Below are positions 19,244 to 38,630 of a stretch of DNA of 64,000 nucleotides, piece by piece. Source of the stretch: an uncultured Clostridia bacterium. Lineage in GTDB: Bacteria > Bacillota > Clostridia > Lachnospirales > Anaerotignaceae. Numbering within the stretch: position 1 is the first letter of the stretch; every line of letters begins with the position of its first letter. The notes beneath the pieces are model-generated. The model was not told the DNA's origin. It saw only the letters and a list, made by a program, of their open reading frames with translations, and made no database searches. Both the position numbers and the translations under genes were made by a program. The DNA is taken from contig CALWGF010000007.1 in assembly GCA_944379995.1 (NCBI GenBank), forward strand, positions 62,001-126,000, in the 5' to 3' direction.

Positions 19244-22200
19244 TTAAATTTCTATTGTACCATCAAATACTTTTACAGCTTTTCCAGAAAGATAAATAGT
19301 ATCATCAATATTACTTATAAGAAGGTCGCCACCTTTTTGTTTAACTGTAATTTCTTTATCTTCTTGACAATATCCGTTAAGCACCGCAGCAGCAGCAGCA
19401 ACACAAGCACCTGTACCACAAGCCCAAGTTTCTCCACTACCTCTTTCCCATACTCTCATACGGATTGTTGTTTTATTTATAACTTGAACAAATTCTGTTG
19501 TAACTCTTTCAGGGAAGAGTGGATTATATTCAAATTCATAACCGATTTTTTCTATATCAATAGCATCAAGATTATCACAGAATACAACACAATGTGGATT
19601 ACCAAGATTTATACAAGTTACATTGTATGGTGTTCTATTTATTACAACAGGACGATTTATAACTTTATCGCCTTCAAGATTTACAGGAACAAGTTTAGGG
19701 TCAAGAACTATTTTACCCATTTCAACAGTTGCAGAAACAGCTTTTCCATTCTGTGTGAAAAGCTTAACTTTTCTTACACCGCTTAATGTTTCAACTGTAA
19801 GGTCTGTTTTATTTACGATACCATTATCATAAACATATTTTGCAAGACATCTTATAGCATTACCACCCATAAATTCTTCACTACCATCAAGGTTGTAAAG
19901 TTTCATTTTTACATCTGCTACATTTGATTTACATATAAGAACTACACCTTCGCCACCAATACTGAAATGTCTGTTTGAAAGTGTAACAGCAAGTGATTCA
20001 GGGCTTTCAATCATATTTTCATCATTCATACAGTTGAAATAAATGAAGTCATTTCCTGTACCATGCATTTTTGTAAATTTAAGAGCAAGTTTTTCTTCAC
20101 GCATATTGTTAATATCAATAAGTTCGATATTATTCTGTGAGAAACGGCTCATAAGACAGTTTGCAAGAGCATCTGCTGTATCAAGTGATGTAAGGCAAGG
20201 TATAGCATGTTCAACTGCTATACGGCGTATTTTAACGCTGTCACGGCTTGGAAGTCTTCCTTTTGATGAAGTAGAAATAATATAATTGATTTTTCCGCTT
20301 TCAAGAAGAGTTTTTGTGTTTTCGCTTCCTTCGTGTATTTTATTTACAGGTGTTACATTAAGCCCTGCATCATTTAATACTTTTGCTGTTCCTTTTGTTG
20401 AGTAAAGTTCGAATCCAAGAGCAGCATATTTTTTAGCTATATCAACGATTTCACCTTTATCACTATTCTTTACAGTAATAAACATTGCACCGTTTTTCTT
20501 CATTTTATATCCAGCAGCTATAAGACCTTTATAGAGAGCTTCTCCTAATGTTGTACCAATACCGAGAACTTCTCCAGTTGATTTCATTTCAGGTCCAAGC
20601 TGAACGTCTACGTCAATAAGTTTTTCAAATGAGAATACTGGAACTTTTACAGCAATGTATGGAGGTGTTTTGTAAAGTCCTGTACCATATCCAAGGTCTT
20701 TAAGTTTTTTACCAAGCATACAAGCTGTTGCAAGGTCAACCATAGGAACACCTGTAACTTTGCTTATATATGGTATTGTTCTTGAAGAACGTGGATTTAC
20801 TTCTATAACATAAATCTGGTTTTCATATATTACATACTGAATATTTACAAGACCTTTTGTTTTAAGTGAAACAGCAAGGTTCTTTGTATAATCAATAATT
20901 TTTTCTGTAAGTTCTCCACTAACATTCCAAGCAGGGTAAACAGCAATAGAGTCACCAGAGTGTATACCAGCTCTTTCAACGTGTTCCATAATACCTGGAA
21001 TAAGAATATCTTCACCATCACAAATAGCATCAACTTCAATTTCAACACCCATAAGGTATTTGTCAATAAGAATAGGATTTTCTATTTCGTGAGCAAGAAT
21101 TATTTTCATATATTCAATAATATCTTCATCACTAAATGCGATAATCATATTCTGTCCACCTAATACATATGAAGGACGCATAAGAACAGGGTACTGAAGT
21201 TCATTTGCAACTTTTAAAGCCTCTTCAGTTGTCATTACTGTATAACCAGAAGGACGTTTAATTCCAAGGCTTTCAAGAAGTGCATCAAAACGTTCTCTGT
21301 CTTCGGCAGCATCAATACTATCAGCAGGAGTACCAAGAATATTTACACCTTGTGTTTCAAGGAATTTTGTAAGTTTAATAGCTGTCTGTCCACCGAATGC
21401 AACTACAACACCATATGGTTTTTCTGTTTCAATGATATTCATTACATCTTCAGGTGTAAGTGGTTCAAAGTAAAGTCTGTCTGCTGTGTCAAAGTCAGTT
21501 GATACAGTTTCAGGATTGTTATTTGCTATAACAACTTCAAATCCAGCTTTTTTAAGTGACCATACACAATGAACTGAAGCATAATCGAATTCTATACCCT
21601 GACCAATTCTTATTGGACCAGAACCGAATACTATAACTGTCTTTTTGTCTGAATTTCTTTCTGCAATAAATTCAGCAGCTTCATTTTCTGTGTCATATGT
21701 TGAATAGAAATATGGAGTTTCAGCTTTGAATTCAGCAGCACAAGTATCAACCATTTTAAATACGCCTTTGCGTGGGTTTTCTATTTTCTGTCCTGAAATT
21801 CTTTCAATTACTTTATCAGGGTAACCATATTTTTTACCTTTTATATAAAGCTCTTCTGTAAGAGTATTTTCTGCAATTTCTTTTTCATAATCAACAAGGT
21901 GTCTTAATTTATTTAAGAACCAGAAATCAATTTTTGTTATATCATGAATGTATTCAAGAGTAATTCCTCTCTTAATTGCTTCAAATACAACAAAAAGTCT
22001 TTCGTCATCGCATACACTTATTTTATCTTTTATTTCCTCATCACTTAATTCAGCAAGTTTTGGAAGGTTAAGGCTATCAAGAGATATTTCAGCACCTCTT
22101 ACAGCTTTCATAATAGCCATTTCGAAGTTTGGACCAATAGCCATAACTTCACCAGTAGCTTTCATCTGTGTTCCAAGTGTACGTTTTGCATAAACAAATT

Positions 22201-23290
22201 TATCAAAAGGCCATTTTGGAAGTTTAACAACAACATAGTCAAGAGCAGGCTCAAAACAAGCATATGTTTTTCCAGTAACGGCATTTTTAATTTCATCAAG
22301 AGTGTAACCGATAGCTATTTTTGCAGCAACTTTAGCAATAGGATAACCTGTTGCTTTTGATGCAAGAGCAGAAGAACGAGATACACGAGGGTTAACTTCA
22401 ATTACAGCATAGTCAAAGCTATTTGGGTCTAAAGCAAACTGACAGTTACAACCACCTTCAACACCAAGAGCAGAAACAATGTTTAATGAAGCTGAACGAA
22501 GCATCTGATATTCTTTGTCTGAAAGTGTAACAGCAGGAGCAATAACAACAGAGTCACCTGTATGAACACCAACAGGGTCAAAGTTTTCCATTGAACATAC
22601 TGTTATACAGTTTCCAGCACTATCACGAATAACTTCAAATTCAATTTCTTTCCAACCGGAAATACATTTTTCAACGAGGATTTGTGTAATAGGGGAGAGA
22701 CGAAGTCCGTTTGCTGCTATTTCTCTAAGTTCTTCTTCGTTATAACAGATACCACCACCTGTACCACCAAGTGTGAATGCAGGACGAATGATAACTGGGT
22801 ATCCTATTTTATTTGTAAATGCTATTGCATCTTCAAGAGTGTTTACAACTTCAGAAGGAATGACAGGTTCACCGATTTCAAGCATAGTATCTTTAAACAT
22901 CTGTCTGTCTTCAGCTTTATCTATTGTTAAAGGATTAGCACCAAGAAGTTTTACATTGTTCTCTTCAAGGAAACCTTCTTTTGCAAGCTGCATAGAAAGA
23001 GTAAGACCTGTTTGTCCACCAAGTGTTGAAAGTATACTGTCTGGTTTTTCTTTCTTTATAATTCTTTTTAAAACATCAATTGTTAATGGCTCAATATAAA
23101 TTTTATCAGCCATAGCCTTATCAGTCATAATTGTAGCAGGGTTGCTGTTTACAAGAACAACTTCAAGACCTTCTTCTCTTAAAGCACGGCAGGCCTGAGT
23201 TCCGGCATAGTCAAATTCTGCCGCTTGTCCGATTATAATAGGACCTGAACCTATAACAAGTACCTTTTTAATATCATTTTTAAGTGGCAT
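19244..23290 (-). CDS. carB: Fusion protein: carbamoyl-phosphate synthase large subunit (CarB) + diaminopimelate epimerase-like domain (DapF)
   Basis: This is one uninterrupted 1348-codon frame. Residues 1 to about 1062 are a complete Car[20 protein letters not shown] at the start, two ATP-grasp halves (the second begins [20 protein letters not shown] near residue 550), and a C-terminal MGS-like domain. From about residue 1063 ([20 protein letters not shown]) a full-length DapF follows to the end. No SD precedes the methionines at the seam, so a separate dapF start is unlikely. In the DapF part the second catalytic cysteine is present (C1291 in [11 protein letters not shown]). The first is replaced: the usual MCGN reads MGGNAIRC, with glycine at 1142. 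CarB makes carbamoyl phosphate with CarA. DapF normally epimerises LL- to meso-diaminopimelate; with one active-site cysteine missing, that activity is doubtful. It overlaps carA by one base (TAATG). Confidence 0.95.
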
Positions 23291-24780: not shown

Positions 24781-25368
24781 TCAGCTGTCATAAGTATTAA
24801 GAATATCTTTAGCTATTGCAGATTTTGTTCTTCTTGTATCCATAGCTTGTTTTTCAATATATCTATGAGCTGTTGCCTCTGTCATATTAAGATATTGTAT
24901 AAGAGCACATTTTGCTCTGTCAACAAGTCTTATTTCTTCTATTTTCTTTTGGAGTTTCATATTTTCTTTTTCAAGTATATGAAGTCTTTTTTGTGTTGCA
25001 AAAACTAATTTTACAGCACTATAAAAAGATTGTCTTCCTAAAGGTTTTGAAAGAACAACAATGCCATAGTCTTCAACTTTATCACATACATCATCATATA
25101 TATCAGATTTAACAATAAGTATAATACCAGACATAGTATTTGAAGAAGCATAAAGTGCAAGCTCATGACCAAACTCATCAGTTAAAGGTGTATTAACTAT
25201 AATAATATCAAAACTATCTTCTATAAGCATTCGTCTTGCTTCTGAACCGTTTTTGGTAGAAAAAAGTCTTGTTGTTCCTAAAGTATTTTTTAAAATATCC
25301 TCAATTATGTCAGAACCTTTTTCGCTACCAGAAATAATAAGAGCATTTGATGTATTATTCAACTCCAT
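24781..25368 (-). CDS. ANTAR-domain RNA-binding response regulator (degenerate receiver)
   Basis: This 195-residue protein has an N-terminal receiver-like domain (about 5-125), a coiled-coil linker (KRLHILEKENMKLQKKIEEI) and a C-terminal ANTAR domain (about 140-195). The ANTAR part has the usual pattern VDRAKCALIQYLNMTEATAHR and RRTKSAIAKDIL. Where receivers carry the phosphorylated aspartate at the end of strand 3, this one reads DIIIVNTPLTDE, with asparagine. Phosphorylation at the normal site is therefore doubtful; it may be ligand- or protein-controlled. ANTAR proteins act as antiterminators that bind hexaloop hairpins in leader RNAs. It is the last gene of the glutamate synthase/GS operon, and matching hairpins occur at 31514-31529 and 31728-31743. 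I infer it controls nitrogen-assimilation leaders. Confidence 0.88.
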   Translation of the reverse strand: MELNNTSNALIISGSEKGSDIIEDILKNTLGTTRLFSTKNGSEARRMLIEDSFDIIIVNTPLTDEFGHELALYASSNTMSGIILIVKSDIYDDVCDKVEDYGIVVLSKPLGRQSFYSAVKLVFATQKRLHILEKENMKLQKKIEEIRLVDRAKCALIQYLNMTEATAHRYIEKQAMDTRRTKSAIAKDILNTYDS

Positions 25369-25396: not shown

Positions 25397-26710
25397 TTAT
25401 ACTCTATAAAAATAATTAAAGAGTTCGAAATTTTCTTTATCTTCTGAATTAGAGTAAAGAGAGTATTCTTTTCTTTTTATTGAAATATATTTTTCTAATG
25501 TTTTATTAGGTATTACTGATTTTATAAAATCACTTTTTTCTGCTAAAATAATAGCTTCTTCAAGGGTTTCAGGAAGTTTTTTGAAATCCTTTGAATTTTT
25601 ATTTTCATACATATTAAAATTATATGAAGGAATAAGTTTAATACCTTTTTTAATTCCTTCCATACCTGCTTTTATAATCAATGCTAAAGCAATATAAGGA
25701 TTACAAGAAGGGTCAGGGGAACGAAGTTCCATACGGCTGTTTTCGCCCTTAGACGCAGGTATTCTTATAAGCTGTGAACGATTTTGATGTGACCAGCTTA
25801 TGTATTTAGGTGCTTCAAAATTTCCAAAACGAGAATAAGAATTTGTAATAGGATTAAGGAATAATGTTATTTCTTGAATTCTTTCAAGTATTCCAGCAAT
25901 GAAACTTTCAGCAGCCTGTGAATGTTCATCTATTTCTGTTTTAAATATGTTTAAACCATTTTTAAAAAGTGAAAGATTTATATGCAGACCATTTCCGCTT
26001 TCGTTTTTTAATGGTTTTGGCATAAATGATGCATAAAGACCATTTCTTGCAGCAACTGATTTTACAACAGACTTAAATGTTACAAAGTTATCAGCTGTTG
26101 TAAGAGCATCATCATATTTAAAATCTATTTCGTTTTGTCCCGGACCAGACTCATGATGAGAACTTTCCGGAGTTATATTCATTTCTTCAAGTGTAAGACA
26201 TATTTCACGTCTTATATTTTCGCCTTTATCAATAGGGGCAATGTCAAAATATGTTCCCATATCAAAAGGTTTTTTTGTAGGAAAACCATTTTCATCAGTT
26301 TCAAAAAGATAGAATTCAAATTCTGTTCCTACTTTACAAATGTATTTCATTTCTTTAAGTTCATTTAATACATTTTTTAATATATATCTTCCATCGCCTT
26401 CAAAATGTCTTCCGTCAGGATATTTTATATCACAAAAGAAACGAACAACACGACCTCTTGAAGGACGCCATGGAAGTATTGAAAGGGTAGATGGGTCAGG
26501 CACTAAAAATAGGTCTGACTCATCTATATTCATAAAACCATCTATTGATGAAGCGTCAAATGATATACCTGTATCAAATGCACGAGGAAGCTCTGAAGGC
26601 ATTATTGATATATTTTTTTGTACACCGAAAATATCGCAAAATGCAAGTCTTATAAATTTTACATCATTTTCTTCAACAAATTGAAGAACCTCTGATATTG
26701 TATAATTCAT
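25397..26710 (-). CDS. glnA: Glutamine synthetase type I
   Basis: This 437-residue enzyme makes glutamine from glutamate, ammonia and ATP. It has the N-terminal beta-grasp (DVKFIRLAFCDIFGVQKNIS). Catalytic motifs are KVGTEFEFYLFE, ESSHHESGPGQNEIDF, GNGLHINLSL, and the ATP loop NPITNSYSRFGNFEAPKYIS. SRMELRSPDPSCNPYIALA is near the end. Size and lack of the ~25-residue insertion fit the GSI-alpha form. No adenylylation-type tyrosine motif is evident. It lies 20 bases downstream of the GXGXG glutamate synthase gene and 28 bases before the ANTAR gene. A second, unrelated GSIII gene is encoded divergently at 31878. Confidence 0.92.
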   Translation of the reverse strand: MNYTISEVLQFVEENDVKFIRLAFCDIFGVQKNISIMPSELPRAFDTGISFDASSIDGFMNIDESDLFLVPDPSTLSILPWRPSRGRVVRFFCDIKYPDGRHFEGDGRYILKNVLNELKEMKYICKVGTEFEFYLFETDENGFPTKKPFDMGTYFDIAPIDKGENIRREICLTLEEMNITPESSHHESGPGQNEIDFKYDDALTTADNFVTFKSVVKSVAARNGLYASFMPKPLKNESGNGLHINLSLFKNGLNIFKTEIDEHSQAAESFIAGILERIQEITLFLNPITNSYSRFGNFEAPKYISWSHQNRSQLIRIPASKGENSRMELRSPDPSCNPYIALALIIKAGMEGIKKGIKLIPSYNFNMYENKNSKDFKKLPETLEEAIILAEKSDFIKSVIPNKTLEKYISIKRKEYSLYSNSEDKENFELFNYFYRV

Positions 26711-26730: not shown

Positions 26731-27453
26731 TCAGTTCTTTGTATAAAGTTGTTTATATGGATTTTTTGTATCTGCTGTAAGCACATAGAAATCCTTTTCA
26801 AATACTGTATCTTTATTGAAATCAAATTCATTGCAATATTCATCTATAAGAGGAATAATTTCTTCTATATCTTCTTTATCTGCCTTTTTTACAGAAATCT
26901 GTTTAGGAAGGTCAAAAGGGAGTTCTTCACAACGTATAAATATTTTTCCGCCATGCATTCCTGTTCCACAAAATCTTCCAACAGGTGTTTTTTCATTTGT
27001 ATTAAGACCAAGAACAACTATTGTTCCACCAGCCTGATATTCTCCGAGAAAACTTCCAGCACAGCCACCAATTACTATTGAAGGCTTATGTTCGTTATAT
27101 GCTTTAATATGAATACCTGTACGATAACCAGTGTTTTCTTTTATAAATATTTTTCCACCTCTCATAGCATATCCTGTTGCATCACCTGATGAACCATGTA
27201 TATATATAGTTCCGCTATTCATTGTATCGCCTGTGGCTTCTTGTGTGTTACCATATACTCTTACTGTACAACCATCAAGGTATGATGCAAGAGCATTTCC
27301 AGGGGTACCATTTATAACAATATTTTTGTCTTTCATGCCACAGCCGATATATCTTTGTCCGATACAATTTTGTATTACAACTTCTTTATCTGGACAGCTT
27401 TTTATTTCATTATTAAGGTCTTTAAAATGTTTTGTTCCTGCATATATATTCAT
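26731..27453 (-). CDS. Glutamate synthase GXGXG-domain subunit (archaeal-type GltB C-terminal part)
   Basis: This 240-residue right-handed beta-helix protein contains the repeating glycine pattern of the gltB C-terminal domain: QRYIGCGMKDKNIVINGTPG, YGNTQEATGDTMNSGTIYIHG, YAMRGGKIFIKENTGYRTGI and GTGMHGGKIFIRCE. In one-chain glutamate synthase this domain is structural at the C-terminus. Here it is a separate subunit, as in archaeal-type and N-methylglutamate-synthase-like systems. The two other parts are encoded at 28829-30337 and 30337-31431, with purA in between. SD GGGGG is on the minus strand. Confidence 0.9.
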   Translation of the reverse strand: MNIYAGTKHFKDLNNEIKSCPDKEVVIQNCIGQRYIGCGMKDKNIVINGTPGNALASYLDGCTVRVYGNTQEATGDTMNSGTIYIHGSSGDATGYAMRGGKIFIKENTGYRTGIHIKAYNEHKPSIVIGGCAGSFLGEYQAGGTIVVLGLNTNEKTPVGRFCGTGMHGGKIFIRCEELPFDLPKQISVKKADKEDIEEIIPLIDEYCNEFDFNKDTVFEKDFYVLTADTKNPYKQLYTKN

Positions 27454-27488: not shown

Positions 27489-28763
27489 TTAGTACATTAC
27501 AATGTACTCATCTCTTGAGGCACCAACAGAAACATATTTGATTTTTGAATTAACAGCTTTTTCAATATATTTAATATAGTCATATGCTTCTTTTGGAAGG
27601 TCTTCCGGTTTTCTGCATTTGCTTATATCACAATTCCAGCCTTTTACATATTCAACAACAGGTTTTGCTTTTTCAAGTTCTGTTGAATATGGGAATTCTG
27701 TTGTAATTGTTCCTTCAACATCATAAGCAACACAAACAGGAATTTCTTCAAGATATGAAAGTACATCAAGTTTTGTAAGAGCAAGTTCATCACAACCCTG
27801 AACAGTTACACCATAGCGTGATGCTGGAATATCAAATGGTCCAACACGTCTTGGTCTACCTGTTGCAGCACCATATTCTCCACCTGCTTCTCTAAGTTTT
27901 TCTGCTTCTTCTCCAAACATTTCAGCTGTGAAAGGTCCTTCACCTACACATGTTGAATATGCTTTCATAATACCGATAGAATTTGTAAGTTTAAGATTTG
28001 GAACACCTGCACCAATAGGGGCATATGCAGCTATTGTTGAAGATGATGATGTATATGGATAAATACCATAGTCAATATCTCTAAGTGCTCCAAGCTGAGC
28101 TTCAAACATAACTTTTTTACCATTTTTAACAGCGTTTGTTATATATATACCTGTATCACATATGAAATCTTTAAATTCTTCAGCATATTTATCAAGCCAG
28201 CTTAACATTTCATCAAAGCTAACTTCATCTGCACCATAAACTTTTGTTATAGTAAGGTTTTTCCATTCAAGAATTCTTGAAAGTTCCTTTGTATATGTTT
28301 CTTTGCTAAGAAGGTCGCCCATTCTTATACATTTTTTCATATATTTATCACCATATACAGGAGAAATACCTCTTCTTGTTGAACCATATTTAGCATCACC
28401 AAGACGGTCTTCTTCAAGAATATCCTGCTGTCTATGGTATGGCATACATACAATAGCTTTATTGCTTATTTTAAGATTTTCTGGAGTAACTTTAACTCCG
28501 GCATCTGTAAGTCTTTTAATTTCTCCGCTTAAATGTTCAAGGTCTATAACCATACCAGGACCCATTACATTTACAACGTCTTCACGAAGTATACCAGATG
28601 GAAGAAGATTAAGTATAAATTTACCAAGTTCATTTATAACTGTATGACCTGCATTATTTCCTCCCTGATAACGTGAAACAATATCATAATCTTGTGAGAG
28701 AAGGTCTACCATTCTACCTTTTCCTTCATCTCCCCAGTTAATTCCAACTATTGATGTTAACAT
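27489..28763 (-). CDS. purA: Adenylosuccinate synthetase
   Basis: This 424-residue GTP-dependent enzyme joins IMP and aspartate in AMP synthesis. The N-terminal SIVGINWGDEGKGRMVDLLS and GGNNAGHTV form the GTP/IMP site. GSTRRGISPVYGDK and the later GEGPFTAEM, TGRPRRVGPFD and GVTVQGCDELALTKLDVL are conserved. It is inserted between glutamate synthase subunit genes on the same strand with short gaps (35 and 65 bases) and no terminator, so it is likely expressed with nitrogen assimilation. SD GGAGG. Length is typical. Confidence 0.96.
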   Translation of the reverse strand: MLTSIVGINWGDEGKGRMVDLLSQDYDIVSRYQGGNNAGHTVINELGKFILNLLPSGILREDVVNVMGPGMVIDLEHLSGEIKRLTDAGVKVTPENLKISNKAIVCMPYHRQQDILEEDRLGDAKYGSTRRGISPVYGDKYMKKCIRMGDLLSKETYTKELSRILEWKNLTITKVYGADEVSFDEMLSWLDKYAEEFKDFICDTGIYITNAVKNGKKVMFEAQLGALRDIDYGIYPYTSSSSTIAAYAPIGAGVPNLKLTNSIGIMKAYSTCVGEGPFTAEMFGEEAEKLREAGGEYGAATGRPRRVGPFDIPASRYGVTVQGCDELALTKLDVLSYLEEIPVCVAYDVEGTITTEFPYSTELEKAKPVVEYVKGWNCDISKCRKPEDLPKEAYDYIKYIEKAVNSKIKYVSVGASRDEYIVMY

Positions 28764-28828: not shown

Positions 28829-30337
28829 TTATTCTCCTGCATGTAATATTCCTAAAATTGAAAGCTCTTTCTCTGTAAGACCTATTCCCCTCAACATAAG
28901 TCTATTACCTTTGAGTGCTTCTATTGAGTTTATACCCATACCACCCATAATTTCTTTTATTTCATGTTCCCATGATTTTACGAGATTTACAAGTCTTTTA
29001 TATCCTTCATCAGGATTAAGTCGTTTTACAAGGTCCTCTCTTTGAGTTGCAATACCCCAGTTGCACTTTCCGAGTTGACAACTTTGACATAAATGACAGC
29101 CAAGAGCAAGTAATGCCGCTGTTGCAATATAACATGCATCTGCCCCAAGTGCAATAGCTTTTACAACATCTGCACTACTTCTTATACTTCCTCCAACGAT
29201 TAAAGATACATTTTCACGTATACCTTCTTCTCTAAGTCTTTGGTCAACACTTGCAAGAGCAAGTTCAATAGGTATACCAACATTGTCACGAATTCTTGTA
29301 GGAGCTGCCCCTGTTCCTCCTCTAAATCCGTCAATAGCTATAATATCTGCACCGCTTCTCGCAATACCACTTGCAATAGCAGCAATATTATGCACAGCAG
29401 CAATTTTTACAATAACAGGTTTTTTATAATCTGTTGCTTCTTTTAATGAATATACAAGTTGTCTTAAATCTTCAATAGAATAAATATCATGATGTGGAGC
29501 AGGGGATATAGCATCTGAGCCTAAAGGTATCATTCTTGTTTTTGAAATATCTTCTAAAACTTTTGTTCCTGGAAGATGTCCTCCAATACCCGGTTTTGCA
29601 CCTTGCCCCATTTTAATTTCTATTGCTGCCCCAGACTCAAGGTAATCTTTATGAACACCAAAACGTCCAGAAGCTACTTGAACTATTGTATTTTTACCAT
29701 ATTTATAAAAATCTTCATGAAGTCCACCTTCACCAGTGTTATAAAGTATTCCCAATTCTTCTGCGGCTCTTGCAAGACTTTCATGAGCATTATAGCTTAT
29801 TGAACCATATGACATAGCAGAAAAGAGTATAGGAACATCAAGTTCCATATGAGGTGCAAGATTATCAATAATATTGCCTTCTTCATCTCTTTCTATTGTA
29901 TCAGGTTTTTTGCCAAGCATAACTTTTGTTTCCATAGGCTCTCTTAAAGGGTCTATTGGAGGGTTTGTAACCTGAGAAGCATTTATAAGTATTTTATCCC
30001 AATAAACAGGAAAAGGTTTTGGATTACCCATAGAAGAAAGAAGTACACCTGCATTGCTTGACTGTCTGTAAATTTCTTCTATTGTTTTTCCTGTCCAGTT
30101 TGTATTTTCTTTAAATGTGTGGTCTGTTTTTACAATTTTTAATGCTCTAGTAGGACAGACAGCAACACATCTATGACAGTTTACACATTTACTATCATCT
30201 GCTATCATCTTTTTTAAATCGCTGTTAAAACTATGTACTTCATTAGCACATTGTTTTTCACATAAACGACAATTTATACATTTATCAAAATTTCTTACAA
30301 CTTCATAGTCAGGATATAAAAAATCTAATGCCGCCAT
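28829..30337 (-). CDS. Glutamate synthase, FMN/iron-sulfur synthase-domain subunit (archaeal-type)
   Basis: This 502-residue protein starts with two 4Fe-4S motifs (CINCRLCEKQCANEV and CVNCHRCVAVCP, residues 20-60). The glutamate synthase central/FMN domain follows: ILFSAMSYGSISYNAHESLA, GEGGLHEDFYKYG, KMGQGAKPGIGGHLPG, GFRGGTGAAPTR and VGGSIRSSADVVKAIALGAD. The cluster motif CHLCQSCQLGKCNWGIATQ suits the 3Fe-4S site. It converts 2-oxoglutarate and glutamine-derived ammonia to glutamate. The added N-terminal ferredoxin suggests ferredoxin as electron donor rather than an NADPH subunit, which I do not see nearby. Its ATG overlaps the stop of the upstream amidotransferase gene by one base. Confidence 0.93.
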   Translation of the reverse strand: MAALDFLYPDYEVVRNFDKCINCRLCEKQCANEVHSFNSDLKKMIADDSKCVNCHRCVAVCPTRALKIVKTDHTFKENTNWTGKTIEEIYRQSSNAGVLLSSMGNPKPFPVYWDKILINASQVTNPPIDPLREPMETKVMLGKKPDTIERDEEGNIIDNLAPHMELDVPILFSAMSYGSISYNAHESLARAAEELGILYNTGEGGLHEDFYKYGKNTIVQVASGRFGVHKDYLESGAAIEIKMGQGAKPGIGGHLPGTKVLEDISKTRMIPLGSDAISPAPHHDIYSIEDLRQLVYSLKEATDYKKPVIVKIAAVHNIAAIASGIARSGADIIAIDGFRGGTGAAPTRIRDNVGIPIELALASVDQRLREEGIRENVSLIVGGSIRSSADVVKAIALGADACYIATAALLALGCHLCQSCQLGKCNWGIATQREDLVKRLNPDEGYKRLVNLVKSWEHEIKEIMGGMGINSIEALKGNRLMLRGIGLTEKELSILGILHAGE

Positions 30338-31431
30338 TATTTAACACCTCCTTCAAGAGTTACTATTATAGGTTCTCCACCTTTTGGTGACCAAATTTTA
30401 TCTGGATTAGGTTCTATTATTCTTATTGCACATTCCTCGCTTGCAATATAAAACATATTGTCTTTTTCAGCAGCAACCATGCTTCTTAATTTAAGTCTAT
30501 CATTAAGAGCCATCATACCACCGTCAAAACCTAAAAGTATTGAGAATGGTCCTGTAACAAGAAGACTTGAAAAAGCTCTTCTTAAATATGTATATTTTAT
30601 ACGCTCTTTTTCTTCCATATGTTCTATTGTTGACCAAAATGGTGCAGCTATTACAGCAGCAACTTCTTCAAGAGTTAATTTTTTCTTTCTATTTAAGAAG
30701 TCAATTATATATGTAATAACTTCTGTATCTGTAAGAAGTGAACATTTATAACCAAACATTTCTATATATCTTCTGTTGGCATCATATGATGAAATTTCAC
30801 CATTATGTACTATTGAATAATCAAGCATAGCGAAAGGGTGAGCTCCTCCCCACCAACCAGGTGTATTTGTAGGGTATCTACCATGTGCTGTCCAACAGTA
30901 TCCAGAGTATTCTTCAAGTCTGTAAAAATCTCCTACATCTTCAGGAAATCCAACAGCTTTAAAAACTCCCATATTTTTACCACTAGAAAATACATATGCT
31001 CCGTCAATTTGTGTATTTATTCTTATACAACATTTTGCAACATATTCTTTTTCATCAAGCTGACTGTCAGCAAGTTTTGTTGGAAGTGGGTTTAAGAAAT
31101 AACGCCATATTAAAGGTTCATTTATTATTCTTGGATTTTTTCTTGTAGGAATTTTTGAAAGGTTTACTACATCAAAATGCCTGTCAAGAAATCTTTCGCA
31201 TTTTTCTCTTGCTTCAATATCATCATAAAATATATGAAATGCATATGAGTCTTTATATTCAGGATAAATTCCATATCCTGCAAATCCACCACCAAGACCA
31301 TTTGAACGGTCATGCATTGTGGATATTGATTTTATTATTGCTTCACCGGAAATTCTTTTTCCGTCTTTTGCAAATATACCAGATATTGCACAACCAGACG
31401 GTATTCTTATTTGTCCTTCTTTAAGTAACAT
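30337..31431 (-). CDS. Glutamate synthase amidotransferase (class II GATase) subunit
   Basis: This 364-residue protein resembles the class II glutamine amidotransferase part of archaeal-type glutamate synthase. SGCAISGIFAKDG (C14) is the probable nucleophile region, although the cysteine is not near-terminal as in MCGI proteins. GYCWTAHGRYPTNTPGWWGG, SIVHNGEISSYDANRRYIE and LLTDTEVITYIIDFL are the expected glutamine-site motifs. The C-terminal third resembles the conserved RAFSSLLVTGPFSILLGFDG. It is the first gene of the minus-strand operon, and it overlaps the synthase subunit by one base. Transcription must pass the attenuator at 31463-31520. Confidence 0.9.
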   Translation of the reverse strand: MLLKEGQIRIPSGCAISGIFAKDGKRISGEAIIKSISTMHDRSNGLGGGFAGYGIYPEYKDSYAFHIFYDDIEAREKCERFLDRHFDVVNLSKIPTRKNPRIINEPLIWRYFLNPLPTKLADSQLDEKEYVAKCCIRINTQIDGAYVFSSGKNMGVFKAVGFPEDVGDFYRLEEYSGYCWTAHGRYPTNTPGWWGGAHPFAMLDYSIVHNGEISSYDANRRYIEMFGYKCSLLTDTEVITYIIDFLNRKKKLTLEEVAAVIAAPFWSTIEHMEEKERIKYTYLRRAFSSLLVTGPFSILLGFDGGMMALNDRLKLRSMVAAEKDNMFYIASEECAIRIIEPNPDKIWSPKGGEPIIVTLEGGVK

Positions 31432-31462: not shown

Positions 31463-31520
31463 AATAGAAAAACGTTCGCCACTCACAGATTTATAGTGTT
31501 TTACTGTGAATGACGAACGT
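31463..31520 (-). terminator. Leader terminator of the glutamate synthase operon
   Basis: On the minus strand ACGTTCGTCATTCACAG (31520-31504) pairs over all 17 positions, with two G-U, with CTGTGAGTGGCGAACGT (31488-31472), and a T-rich run follows. It lies only about 40-70 bases after the predicted transcription start and upstream of the first gene, so it should be a regulated attenuator. Confidence 0.88.
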
Positions 31521-31529
31521 CTTTGTTCG
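31514..31529 (-). promoter_or_regulatory. ANTAR-type hexaloop hairpin in the glutamate synthase leader
   Basis: On the minus strand CGAAC-AAAGAC-GTTCG forms a 5-bp stem with a six-base loop having A at position 1 and G at position 4, the known ANTAR signature. Its 3' arm is part of the terminator's 5' arm, so the two structures exclude each other. Only this single hairpin is found; the usual upstream P1 hairpin is not visible. Confidence 0.6.
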
Positions 31530-31537
31530 ATGAGTGA

Positions 31538-31567
31538 ATTATACTATCATATATATGCATCTGTCAA
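31538..31567 (-). promoter_or_regulatory. Promoter of the glutamate synthase/purA/glnA/ANTAR operon
   Basis: On the minus strand a perfect TTGACA (31567-31562) and TATAAT (31543-31538) are 18 bases apart. The start is predicted near 31531, immediately before the hexaloop hairpin. Confidence 0.8.
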
Positions 31568-31686
31568 CGATTTAAGCCATTTGAAAATATAAGGATTTCT
31601 TATTGTTAATATATAACAACTTTTTTTATTAAAATAAGTTTTTTGTATACAATTTAGTTTAAAATTAAAAAATTTGTTAAAATGTA

Positions 31687-31715
31687 TTGACTTTTTATTT
31701 TTGGGACAATATAAT
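31687..31715 (+). promoter_or_regulatory. Promoter of glnN
   Basis: TTGACT (31687-31692), a 17-base spacer and TATAAT (31710-31715). The start is predicted near 31722. Confidence 0.8.
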
Positions 31716-31727
31716 CAACACCATAAA

Positions 31728-31743
31728 ACAGCAAAGGCGCTGT
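31728..31743 (+). promoter_or_regulatory. ANTAR-type hexaloop hairpin in the glnN leader
   Basis: ACAGC-AAAGGC-GCTGT forms a 5-bp stem and a six-base loop with A1 and G4. As in the divergent leader, the hairpin begins a few bases after the predicted start. Its loop and 3' arm are shared with the following terminator stem. Confidence 0.6.
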
Positions 31744-31780
31744 GGATTATACATAGTTTATAGTCCACGGTGCCTTTTTT
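31733..31780 (+). terminator. Leader terminator of glnN
   Basis: AAGGCGCTGTGGA (from 31734) pairs fully, with two wobbles, with TCCACGGTGCCTT (31764-31776). The stem continues inward to about 18 bp, and T's run to 31780. It sits about 100 bases upstream of the glnN start codon. Confidence 0.88.
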
Positions 31781-31877: not shown

Positions 31878-33971
31878 ATGGTAAATGTTCCTGAAATTTT
31901 CGGAAGTATGGTTTTTGATGAACAAGCAATGAAAGAAAGACTTCCAAAAGCTACTTATAAACTTATGAAAAAAAGTATAGCACAAGGTAAACCACTTGAT
32001 AGAGAAGTTGCAAATGTTGTTGCTAATGCTATGAAAGATTGGGCAATAGAAAGAGGAGTAACACATTTTACACATTGGTTCCAACCTATGACAGGTGTTA
32101 CAGCCGAAAAACATGATAGCTTTATATCACCAAGTGAAGATGGAAGAGTTATAATGGAATTTTCAGGTAAAGAACTTATACAGGGCGAACCTGATGCATC
32201 AAGTTTTCCTTCTGGTGGACTTAGAGCTACATTTGAAGCAAGAGGATATACAGCATGGGACCCAACAAGCTATGCATTTATAAAAGAAGATACACTTTGT
32301 ATTCCAACTGCTTTCTGTTCATATAGTGGAGAAGCACTTGATAAAAAAACACCACTTCTTCGTTCAATGGAAGTTATAAATACACAAGCATTAAGAATTT
32401 TAAGACTTTTTGGTGATACAGATACAACAAGAGTAAATACAACAGTAGGACCAGAACAGGAATATTTCCTTATTGATGAAGAATTATACAAACAAAGAAA
32501 AGACCTTATATATTGTGGAAGAACTCTTTTCGGAGCAAAACCTCCAAAGGGACAGGAAATGGAAGACCATTACTTTGGTACAATCAAACCAAGAGTAAAA
32601 GCTTTTATGAAAGACCTTAACGAAGAACTTTGGAAACTTGGTATACTTGCTAAGACAGAGCATAATGAAGTTGCACCTGCTCAGCATGAGCTTGCACCAA
32701 TATTTACAACAACAAATATTGCAGCTGACCATAACCAGCTTACAATGGAAATGCTTAAAAAGGTTGCACAAAAACATGGTATGACTTGCCTTTTACATGA
32801 AAAACCTTTTGCAGGTGTAAACGGAAGTGGAAAACATAATAACTGGTCAATATCAACAGATACAGGTATAAACCTTCTTGAACCTGGGGAGTCACCAAAA
32901 GAAAATGCACAGTTTTTGCTTTTCCTTGCAGCTGTAATTAAAGCTGTTGATGATTATCAGGACCTTTTAAGGGTTTCTGTTGTTGGTGCAGGAAATGACC
33001 ATAGACTTGGAGCAAATGAAGCTCCTCCGGCTATTGTTTCTATGTTTGTTGGTGATGAACTTCAAGCAATTCTTGATTCAATAGAAAAAGGTACAGATTT
33101 TGAACAAAAAGATAAAGAAGAAATGGAAATAGGTGTTCATGTACTTCCTCATTTCTTTAAAGATACAACAGATAGAAATAGAACATCACCATTTGCATTT
33201 ACAGGAAATAAATTTGAATTCCGTATGCTTGGTTCAACAGTTTCTGTTTCAGGACCAAATATTGTTTTAAATACAATAGTTGCAGAAGTTTTAGACCAGT
33301 TTGCTGATGAACTTGAAAAAGCAACTGATTTTAACGCAGCATTAAATGCACTTATTAAAAGAACAATAGTTAATCATAAGAGAATTATATTTAATGGTGA
33401 CGGATATAGCGAAGAATGGACAAAAGAAGCTGAAAAAAGAGGTCTTCTTAACCTTAGAACAACTCCAGATGCTTTACCATACTTTATTTCTGAAAAAAGC
33501 ATAAAACTTTTTACAAAGCATAATATATTTACAGAGGTAGAACTTAACTCAAGATATGAAATTCTTCTTGAAAATTATTGTAAAACACTTAATATTGAAG
33601 CTCTTACAATGATTGAAATGGCAAGAAGAAGTATACTTCCAGCTGTAATTGAATATACAAAGAATATTACAGATACACTTACAGCAAAACAAAGTATAGG
33701 AATTGATATTTCAAAATGTAAAGAAAAAGAAGTTGTTGAAGAACTTTCATATATAACATCAATGATTATTGAAAATACAGAAAAACTTGAAAATGCTTTA
33801 ATTGGTGTTAAAGATATTGAAGGAATACAGAATGAAGCAAATTACTATAAAGATACAGTTATTGCTGCAATGAATGAGCTTAGAGTAGTTGCAGACAGAG
33901 CAGAAGTTATAGTAGGAGATGAATACTGGCCATATCCAAGATACGGCGAACTTTTATTTAGCATACTTTAA
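31878..33971 (+). CDS. glnN: Glutamine synthetase type III (GlnN)
   Basis: This 697-residue enzyme is of the long GSIII class known from Bacteroides, Clostridia and cyanobacteria. Typical features are [20 protein letters not shown] at the N-terminus, [86 protein letters not shown] and [15 protein letters not shown]. It makes glutamine from glutamate and ammonia. SD GAGGGGG is 11 bases before the ATG. It is preceded by its own promoter and attenuator, and amt-PII lies downstream with its own leader. Two glutamine synthetases flanking glutamate synthase imply condition-specific use. Confidence 0.97.
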
Positions 33972-34009: not shown

Positions 34010-34013
34010 CACA

Positions 34014-34051
34014 AAGGTGTGTATTTTTTAATATAAAATACATGCCTTTTT
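34014..34051 (+). terminator. Leader terminator of amt with a weak hexaloop hairpin
   Basis: AAGGTGTGTATTT and AAATACATGCCTT pair along 13 bp with two wobbles, and TTTTT follows. CAC-AAAGGT-GTG (34010-34021) overlaps its 5' arm. It has the A1/G4 hexaloop but only a 3-bp stem, so membership in the ANTAR set is uncertain. It may also serve as the glnN terminator. Confidence 0.6.
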
Positions 34052-34069: not shown

Positions 34070-35767
34070 ATGTTTTCATCAGTAAATACCATGTGGGTAT
34101 TATTTGGAGCTGCACTTGTATTTTTTATGCAAGCAGGTTTTGCAATACTTGAAGCAGGTCTTACAAGAGCAAAAAATGCAGGTAATATTATAATGAAAAA
34201 CCTTATGGATTTTAGTATAGGTACACCTATATTTTGGATTACAGGTTTTGGAATAATGTTTGGTTCTGCATCACCGTTTTTTGGTGGTATAGATTTTTTT
34301 ACAAAAGGTGATTACTCATCTGTATTACCAGCAGGTGTTCCATTTTTTGCATTTCTTATATTTCAAACAGTTTTTTGTGCCACAGCAGCAACAATAGTTT
34401 CTGGAGCAATGGCAGAAAGAACAAAATTTTCATCATATTGTATTTATAGTTTTATTATTAGTGCAATAATTTATCCTGTATCTGGTCATTGGATTTGGGG
34501 AGGCGGTTGGCTTGCACAACTTGGTTTTCACGATTTTGCAGGTTCAACAGCTGTTCATATGGTTGGTGGTATTGCAGCGTTTATTGGTGCAAAAACACTT
34601 GGACCACGTATTGGAAAATATACAGCAGACGGAAAACCTAAAGCAATTCTTGGTCATAACCTTACAATAGCAGCACTTGGAGTATTTATATTATGGTTCT
34701 GTTGGTTTGGTTTTAATGGTTGTTCAACAGTAAGTGCTGAAGGTGATGAAACTCTTATAAAAATGGGTTCAATATTTGTTACAACAAATATGTCAGCAGC
34801 AGTCGCTTCAATTACAGTTATGCTTATAACTTGGATAAGATATAAAAAACCTGATGTTTCAATGACATTAAATGGTACTTTGGCAGGTCTTGTTGCCATA
34901 ACAGCTGGCTGTGATATGGTTTCTGTTGGTGGTTCTGCTGTTATAGGTATTATTGCAGGATTTGTAGTTGTTTTTGGTATTGAATTTGTAGATAAAGTTT
35001 TAAAAGTTGATGACCCTGTTGGTGCTGTTGGTGTTCATGGTATGTGTGGAGCAACAGGAACAATTCTTACAGGTGTATTTGCTACTGATGGTGGTCTTTT
35101 ATATGGTGGCGGATTTTCATTTCTTGGTACTCAACTTTTAGGTGTTATATCAGTTGCTATATGGGTTACTATAACAATGACAATAGTATTTCAGATTATT
35201 AAAAATACAATAGGTCTTCGTGTTTCTGAAGAAGAAGAGATACTTGGTCTTGATATTAAAGAACATAATCTTGAAAGTAGCTATGCAGGATTTACAATAC
35301 CTAGAGAAACAGTATTTGGAGCAAATTTCAAAAAAGAACAGCCTGTTACTGTTGAAGAAGCTGTAACAGTACATCATGTCGCTACAAAATCAAGTAATAC
35401 AAATGAAAATGATAAATTAACAAAAGTTGTTATTATTACAAATCAGAATAAATTTGAAAAACTTAAAAATGCACTTAATGGAATAGGAATTACAGGTCTT
35501 ACTGTAACACAAGTTTTAGGTTATGGTATGCAAAAAGGTAATAACGAATACTATCGTGGTATAGAGGTTGATGCTGCATTAAGACCAAAGGTAAAACTTG
35601 AAATGGTTGTATGTAAAACACCAGTTGAAACTGTTATTAATACAGCAAAAGAAGTTCTTTTTACAGGTCGTATAGGTGATGGTAAAATATTTATATATGA
35701 TGTTGAAAATGTTATAAAAATAAGAACAGGCGAAGAAGGCTATGACGCATTACAAGATGAAGATTAA
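34070..35767 (+). CDS. amt: Ammonium transporter fused to a PII signalling domain
   Basis: This is a 565-residue fusion. Residues 1 to about 400 are an Amt/Mep/Rh channel with about 11 membrane segments: MQAGFAILEAGLTRAKNAGN, STAVHMVGGIAAFIGAKTLG with the first pore histidine, and GVHGMCGATGTILTGVFA with the second. Residues about 448-560 are a PII domain (LTKVVIITNQNKFEKLKNAL, PKVKLEMVV, TGRIGDGKIFIYDVENVIKI). In the T-loop the motif is YYRGIEV: the tyrosine that is uridylylated in E. coli GlnB is valine (V500), so control by uridylylation is not expected. PII normally blocks Amt in trans; a covalent PII should gate the channel in cis via 2-oxoglutarate and nucleotides. SD GGGGGA. Confidence 0.94.
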   Translation: MFSSVNTMWVLFGAALVFFMQAGFAILEAGLTRAKNAGNIIMKNLMDFSIGTPIFWITGFGIMFGSASPFFGGIDFFTKGDYSSVLPAGVPFFAFLIFQTVFCATAATIVSGAMAERTKFSSYCIYSFIISAIIYPVSGHWIWGGGWLAQLGFHDFAGSTAVHMVGGIAAFIGAKTLGPRIGKYTADGKPKAILGHNLTIAALGVFILWFCWFGFNGCSTVSAEGDETLIKMGSIFVTTNMSAAVASITVMLITWIRYKKPDVSMTLNGTLAGLVAITAGCDMVSVGGSAVIGIIAGFVVVFGIEFVDKVLKVDDPVGAVGVHGMCGATGTILTGVFATDGGLLYGGGFSFLGTQLLGVISVAIWVTITMTIVFQIIKNTIGLRVSEEEEILGLDIKEHNLESSYAGFTIPRETVFGANFKKEQPVTVEEAVTVHHVATKSSNTNENDKLTKVVIITNQNKFEKLKNALNGIGITGLTVTQVLGYGMQKGNNEYYRGIEVDAALRPKVKLEMVVCKTPVETVINTAKEVLFTGRIGDGKIFIYDVENVIKIRTGEEGYDALQDED

Positions 35768-38472: not shown

Positions 38473-38498
38473 CACATTATAAATTTAATATTTTTTAG

Positions 38499-38586
38499 AA
38501 CTGGGGAGCTGATTAAATCAGCTGAGAGTGAGGTGTTGTCCTCTTACTCATTGAACCTGTAAGGTTAGTGCCTACGTAGGGAGTTT
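38499..38586 (+). ncRNA. TPP riboswitch (THI element)
   Basis: The conserved order is present: CTGGGGAGCTG, then CTGAGAGTGAGG, a variable P3 arm, TTGAACCTGTAAGGTTAGTGCC and TACGTAGGGAGTT. The CTGAGA and ACCTG...GGTTAGTGCC parts are the pyrimidine- and pyrophosphate-sensing bulges. It precedes thiamine synthesis genes. A terminator follows at 38631, so control is by premature termination on TPP binding. Confidence 0.96.
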
Positions 38587-38630
38587 CTTTTTTTTATAAT
38601 AATAATTTTTTATTATTTTAAGATTTTTAA

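Follow-up and report, generated by a model that had tools for sequence, protein, structure and literature searches.

The accepted model of ANTAR antitermination requires two hexaloops in the leader RNA, and the locus described here raises the question of whether one of them could be enough. Published RNA searches demand both hexaloops and would have passed over targets that have only one. In the 2022 structure of EutV bound to RNA, a dimer holds a single hexaloop; that study reduced the minimal site to one hexaloop and asked for studies of targets of this kind (PMC8934654), and it left open how far they are used and why the upstream recruitment hairpin, P1, is needed.

Two divergent leaders and a third before amt

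The DNA comes from an uncultured Clostridia bacterium (Anaerotignaceae; assembly GCA_944379995.1, contig CALWGF010000007.1, positions 62,001-126,000 of the forward strand), and "the window" denotes this whole stretch of 64,000 nt. The intergenic region between the glutaminase-subunit gene of glutamate synthase (- strand) and the gene of a type III glutamine synthetase (+ strand) contains two divergent promoters, each with its own leader. The features used in the argument are the following.

24781..25368, - strand: predicted NitR-like ANTAR protein (pseudo-receiver, coiled coil, ANTAR domain), the final gene of the glt cluster ahead of carAB
25397..26710, - strand: type I glutamine synthetase (GSI), immediately upstream of the ANTAR gene
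26731..27453, - strand: glutamate synthase GXGXG subunit
28829..30337, - strand: glutamate synthase FMN/Fe-S subunit
30337..31431, - strand: glutamate synthase glutaminase subunit, first gene after the - strand leader
31468..31524, - strand: glt intrinsic terminator, whose 5' arm begins inside the hexaloop and takes the 3' strand of the hairpin
31514..31529, - strand: glt hexaloop hairpin CGAAC-AAAGAC-GTTCG, which would be the ANTAR site and also the antiterminator
31538..31567, - strand: glt operon promoter TTGACA-18-TATAAT, 12/12 consensus
31687..31715, + strand: GSIII promoter TTGACT-17-TATAAT, 11/12 consensus
31728..31743, + strand: GSIII hexaloop hairpin ACAGC-AAAGGC-GCTGT
31733..31777, + strand: GSIII intrinsic terminator, overlapping the hairpin
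31878..33971, + strand: glutamine synthetase type III (GSIII), served by the + strand leader
34010..34021, + strand: amt hexaloop hairpin CAC-AAAGGT-GTG, between the GSIII and amt genes
34013..34049, + strand: amt intrinsic terminator GGTGTGTATTTT...AAAATACATGCCTTTTT, overlapping the amt hairpin (-15.2 kcal/mol)
34070..35767, + strand: ammonium transporter fused to a PII (GlnK) domain (amt-GlnK), served by the third leader

Three neighbours deserve mention in their own right. By sequence, purA (adenylosuccinate synthase) lies at 27489-28763 (-), between the FMN and GXGXG subunit genes and within the attenuated operon. A single frame of 1348 amino acids at 19244-23290 (-) passes from a carbamoyl-phosphate synthase large subunit into a part resembling diaminopimelate epimerase (DapF), an apparent carB-dapF fusion judging from the translation only. 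On the + strand, a TPP riboswitch is found at 38492-38599 (Rfam RF00059, 69.7 bits).

The first-pass annotation had described two leaders, each with a 5-bp hairpin whose hexaloop keeps A1 and G4, a long overlapping terminator and a position right at the mRNA 5' end, together with an ANTAR protein in the leftward operon. The hairpin sequences are as described, and coordinates, folding and covariation agree on the overlapping terminators. As far as sequence can say, the position also holds, with starts predicted from the promoters 1-2 nt before the glt hairpin and about 5 nt before that of GSIII. In both leaders the 5' arm of the terminator is formed by the 3' strand of the hairpin together with the loop bases from A1 or G4 on. 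When the RNA is folded at nascent lengths, the hairpin forms first (-4.7 kcal/mol in glt, -6.5 in GSIII) and the terminator afterwards; the minimum free energy of the terminator alone is -30.0 kcal/mol for glt and about -28 for GSIII. A strict scan of all 64 kb for an A1/G4 hexaloop on a stem of at least 4 bp with an overlapping terminator returned exactly two matches, the glt and GSIII leaders. In a sister species (G002, ANTAR protein 78% identical), the glt and GSIII hairpins are unchanged and their promoters almost unchanged, that of glt being kept although the flanking DNA diverges, as does much of the intervening region.

Both leaders are thus real, and a third one, at amt, had been missed. 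Once 3-bp stems are allowed, the scan adds 34010-34049 to the glt and GSIII leaders; its further weak matches in the window were taken for chance. The match of our leader model in the GSIII-amt intergenic region is itself weak (E 0.7). In the sister species the amt hairpin reads CAC-AAAGAC-GTG, and the terminator arm has changed to match. A good promoter is absent before the amt hairpin here and before most amt leaders elsewhere, so these hairpins are probably attenuators internal to a GSIII-amt operon.

Recurrence across Clostridia and the link to ANTAR genes

The single-hairpin form is widespread in Clostridia, beyond the two leaders first noticed. Starting from glutaminase-subunit loci, of which 80 were fetched in one tblastn-confirmed scan and others added later, we found the hexaloop with its overlapping terminator before glt, GSIII, GSI and amt genes, in 98 distinct leaders over all fetched loci. 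In an unbiased scan, with loop bases free and loop length varied, 42 matches were hexaloops, while loops of 4, 5, 7 and 8 nt gave 5, 1, 1 and 1; A1 and G4 were present in 41 of these 42 hexaloops, A2 in 40 and C6 in 38, and position 3 was free (A, T, G or C). Among 55 aligned leaders, both-sided changes occur at 4 of the 5 hairpin pairs (covariation score 0.76, shuffled mean 0.21) and at 7 of the 10 terminator pairs (0.75, shuffled mean 0.27), about 97% of pairing cells are intact in hairpin and terminator alike, and the slid control reaches at most 0.22, the controls not being probabilities because the two helices have columns in common and the sequences are related. The hairpin and the terminator are mutually exclusive helices under selection.

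Some loci are built differently. In Ruminiclostridium-like and related MAGs (L067, L070, L072, L073, L078, L079), the glt leader has a hexaloop, for example GGAAC-AACGTG-GTTTC, that sits inside the loop, about 100 nt long, of a terminator (ATCGGGCG...CGCCCGATTTTTTT) and does not overlap the terminator's 5' arm. In two Peptococcaceae-like MAGs (L102, L109) the operon encodes an ANTAR protein and the interval from promoter to glutamate synthase gene has no hexaloop hairpin. In four loci (L019, L053, L091, L204), single-hexaloop attenuators stand in tandem before GSIII or amt genes, every one of them with a separate terminator, an arrangement that could possibly give graded or two-step control.

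A leader model (R1) built without P1 information was run over 245 genomes of the class, in which ANTAR proteins were scored as PF03861. R1 matched in 66 genomes and ANTAR in 124, with both in 60. An ANTAR gene is thus present in 60 of 66 leader-positive and 64 of 179 leader-negative genomes (Fisher p about 1e-15, in a sample that is not phylogenetically independent); counted by genus, the figures are 45 of 48 and 40 of 110 (p about 4e-12). Conversely, 25 of 66 genomes that carry a NitR-like ANTAR protein had no leader at the threshold used. In its own genome the GSIII leader scores E 1.4e-5, the GSIII row being part of the R1 seed alignment; the other R1 matches there (L114, L115, L116, L118, L119) resemble plain terminators. 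Gene order points the same way as co-occurrence: a same-strand ANTAR gene lies downstream in 17 of 35 glt loci, mostly 6.5-7.9 kb away (the fetched stretches often end early), and a type I glutamine synthetase gene directly precedes the ANTAR gene in 57 of 76 ANTAR loci.

These data bear on the possibility that the leaders are ordinary attenuators, in which the hairpin serves another factor or RNA stability and the ANTAR gene is a bystander. Six leader-positive genomes lack a detected ANTAR gene, as this explanation would allow, but three of the six belong to genera in which another member has one, and the strong co-occurrence and operon linkage argue against a bystander. The loop bases offer a second point in its favour. 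Positions 4-6 of the loop also join the terminator, as positions 1-3 do here and there by A-U pairing with the T-run, and some of the conservation in the loop might therefore reflect terminator function; the near fixation of A1 and A2 beside a free position 3 is nevertheless a pattern that terminator pairing does not account for. The loop rule of the leaders is also the one known for ANTAR sites. Such a leader is also too short for an aptamer, and Rfam gave no match at the leaders at gathering score (a loose E-value yielded only chance miRNA and sRNA matches); no Rfam family covers the single-hexaloop leaders. We regard a non-ANTAR attenuator as unlikely. The ANTAR regulon suggested in the first-pass annotation accords with the same nitrogen genes recurring across Clostridia and with the co-occurrence of leader and regulator; binding and antitermination by the protein are predicted.

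The search for a second hairpin

An unusual feature suggested in the first reading was that a single hairpin replaces the P1-P2 pair, and it has stood up in the larger set. Our P1 detector looked for a second A1/G4 hexaloop on a stem of at least 3 bp and was tested against shuffled sequence. Candidates were found upstream of 4 of the 98 leaders (shuffle mean 2.2), inside the terminator loop of 1 (3.9) and downstream of 9 (5.7), so that P1 is not above chance upstream, inside or downstream of the 98 leaders. Most of the few candidates overlap promoter boxes or are tandem attenuators, and they were rejected. On a canonical eut leader, taken from a Cetobacterium locus in a plasmid collection, the same rule recovers both hairpins, the linker and the terminator; this is the sole positive control. 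The detector returned nothing at an eut-type locus of Acetoanaerobium and a dual match only, without terminator, at a Sinorhizobium locus, and EutP loci of Clostridia with 1.5-kb flanks, sought as a dual-hairpin control, yielded none.

Spacing supports the same conclusion. Of the 98 leaders, 81 are preceded by a promoter with at least 9 of 12 consensus positions, compared with 13 after shuffling. The -10 box lies at most 13 nt ahead of the hairpin in 69 of those 81, which leaves no space for a P1 (a 12-nt hairpin) and a linker. The spacing clusters at 7-9 nt in glt leaders and 10-12 nt in GSIII leaders. Tandem P1-P2 hexaloops with a short linker are absent from the window leaders, which we therefore place as a variant outside the dual-hexaloop RNA family.

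A canonical dual-hexaloop leader could still be hidden here, with the second hairpin provided by a non-consensus upstream structure or from an upstream promoter. All characterised ANTAR leaders have two hairpins, and distant lineages, with ANTAR proteins only 25-32% identical, still use single hexaloops but in some cases have 20-30 nt between the -10 box and the hairpin; leaders of such lineages may hold a degenerate P1. A cryptic P1 seems very improbable, given candidates at chance level, a detector that does recover P1 in Cetobacterium, and promoters too close to most hairpins to accommodate one. A strict dual-hexaloop pattern, moreover, matched in only 10 of the 245 Clostridia genomes, which is not above its reversed control.

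The missing hairpin might instead come from another molecule, one ANTAR dimer joining, as P1 and P2, the hexaloops of two RNAs (the divergent glt and GSIII leaders, or two transcripts of the same gene). The divergent leaders are about 200 bp apart, at least 10 fetched loci carry both, and the EutV crystals contain hexaloops of two RNA molecules (PMC8934654). The same single leaders, on the other hand, stand alone and without a partner before GSI or amt, and Walshe et al. judged binding in trans unlikely on kinetic grounds (PMC8934654). Bridging of this kind is, in our estimation, very unlikely.

The ANTAR protein and a proposed single-hexaloop switch

The product of 24781-25368 carries an ANTAR domain (PF03861, 55.1 bits against a Pfam cut-off of 27.3) and is the sole ANTAR protein of the source assembly (completeness 89%). 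AlphaFold models it (mean pLDDT 95) as a receiver-like domain followed by a long helix and the ANTAR bundle, a fold that aligns with RNA-bound EutV along the entire chain (TM 0.76). The site of the phospho-acceptor Asp is Asn in this protein and in 48 of 65 family members (Asp in 2); the acidic pair of the receiver pocket is missing, which sets the protein apart from phosphorylated receivers of the EutV type. Judged from its sequence, it has a pseudo-receiver, as AmiR does, and phosphorylation is therefore not a likely trigger; we take it to be an ANTAR protein of the NitR kind. Using the loop-contacting residues of EutV (PMC8934654), we found that all 65 members share the residues matching K149, E160 and M172, that the Y164 position is always His, and that R175 is kept in 54 of 65. 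The window protein has K, E, H, M and R at K149, E160, Y164, M172 and R175 and does not retain R142, R168 and R177; it thus appears to keep most of the residues with which EutV contacts RNA.

Taken together, our results make it highly probable that the leaders attenuate transcription as parts of a NitR-type ANTAR regulon, predicted to act by antitermination through single hexaloops. RNA polymerase makes the hexaloop hairpin first. Folding and covariation show that, if nothing holds this hairpin, the downstream arm captures the 3' strand together with the loop, so that the terminator is built and transcription ends. Under nitrogen scarcity, the operon's own pseudo-receiver ANTAR protein would bind the hexaloop as a dimer and keep the hairpin folded, and polymerase would pass into the glt-GSI-ANTAR operon, GSIII and amt-GlnK. 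One hexaloop would then serve as both binding site and antiterminator, presumably sufficing without an upstream P1 recruitment hairpin. The signal may reach the pseudo-receiver through protein contact rather than phosphorylation, GSI or the GlnK domain being conceivable partners.

A close precedent is NitR of Clostridium saccharobutylicum, for which a review reports that GS/GOGAT genes are induced by antitermination under nitrogen limitation (PMC6316151). The two systems share the pathway, a similar gene set (gltAB/glnA) and an ANTAR gene behind glnA, a likeness that rests on that review and general background rather than on a comparison of NitR sequence or leader anatomy; the cluster described here additionally has purA and the divergent GSIII-amt unit. 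By analogy, the present regulon would answer to nitrogen limitation. The NitR regulon itself is already known, and what appears new is the single-hexaloop form of the leader; the literature that we searched on ANTAR attenuators describes dual motifs only, the original NitR paper lying outside that literature.

With EutV and the eut leaders of Enterococcus faecalis, the system shares the A1/G4 hexaloop, the AC-GU top pairs, a last hairpin that overlaps an intrinsic terminator, an ANTAR protein in the cluster and a role in nitrogen metabolism. The leaders here differ in having no P1 recruitment hairpin, with the hairpin at the predicted mRNA 5' end, and the protein has a pseudo-receiver in place of a phosphorylated receiver, with no kinase gene seen in the operon. 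The glutamate synthase leaders of Desulfotomaculum reducens, also of ANTAR type, were reported from a dual-hairpin covariance search as dual-hairpin (Ramesh 2012), whereas those here have one hairpin. AmiR of Pseudomonas aeruginosa is likewise a pseudo-receiver ANTAR protein that works without phosphorylation and has His at the EutV Y164 position, but its leader is dual-hairpin and it is under the control of AmiC, and an AmiC-like partner was not identified here. The extra single hexaloop of EutX/Rli55 has been proposed as an ANTAR site (PMC8934654); there, a small RNA sequesters the protein, unlike the terminator-overlapping antiterminator described here.

More broadly, we consider it likely, though with less assurance than for the window itself, that a NitR-like ANTAR branch across Clostridia antiterminates on one 5'-terminal hexaloop and that P1 is dispensable there. 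In keeping with this prediction, EutV engages hexaloops singly and with no preference between them (PMC8934654). Against it, P1 is required in vivo in the eut system of E. faecalis (PMC3369931), and NasR binds a single hairpin (P2 alone) more weakly, at about 12 uM (PMC7496416). Lengthening of the linker in the EutV leader is not tolerated either, and together these three observations make how a single hexaloop outruns the terminator the real question. Recruitment without P1 could, for instance, rely on a pseudo-receiver constitutively prone to dimerize, or on a partner, such as the adjacent glutamine synthetase or the GlnK domain, acting as nitrogen sensor.

In conclusion, the leader would represent a minimal switch of roughly 65 nt, and a widespread natural class without P1 on central nitrogen genes makes the need for P1 directly testable. 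The predicted regulon, absent from Rfam, would give many Clostridia, of the gut and of the environment, a further layer of control over ammonium assimilation.
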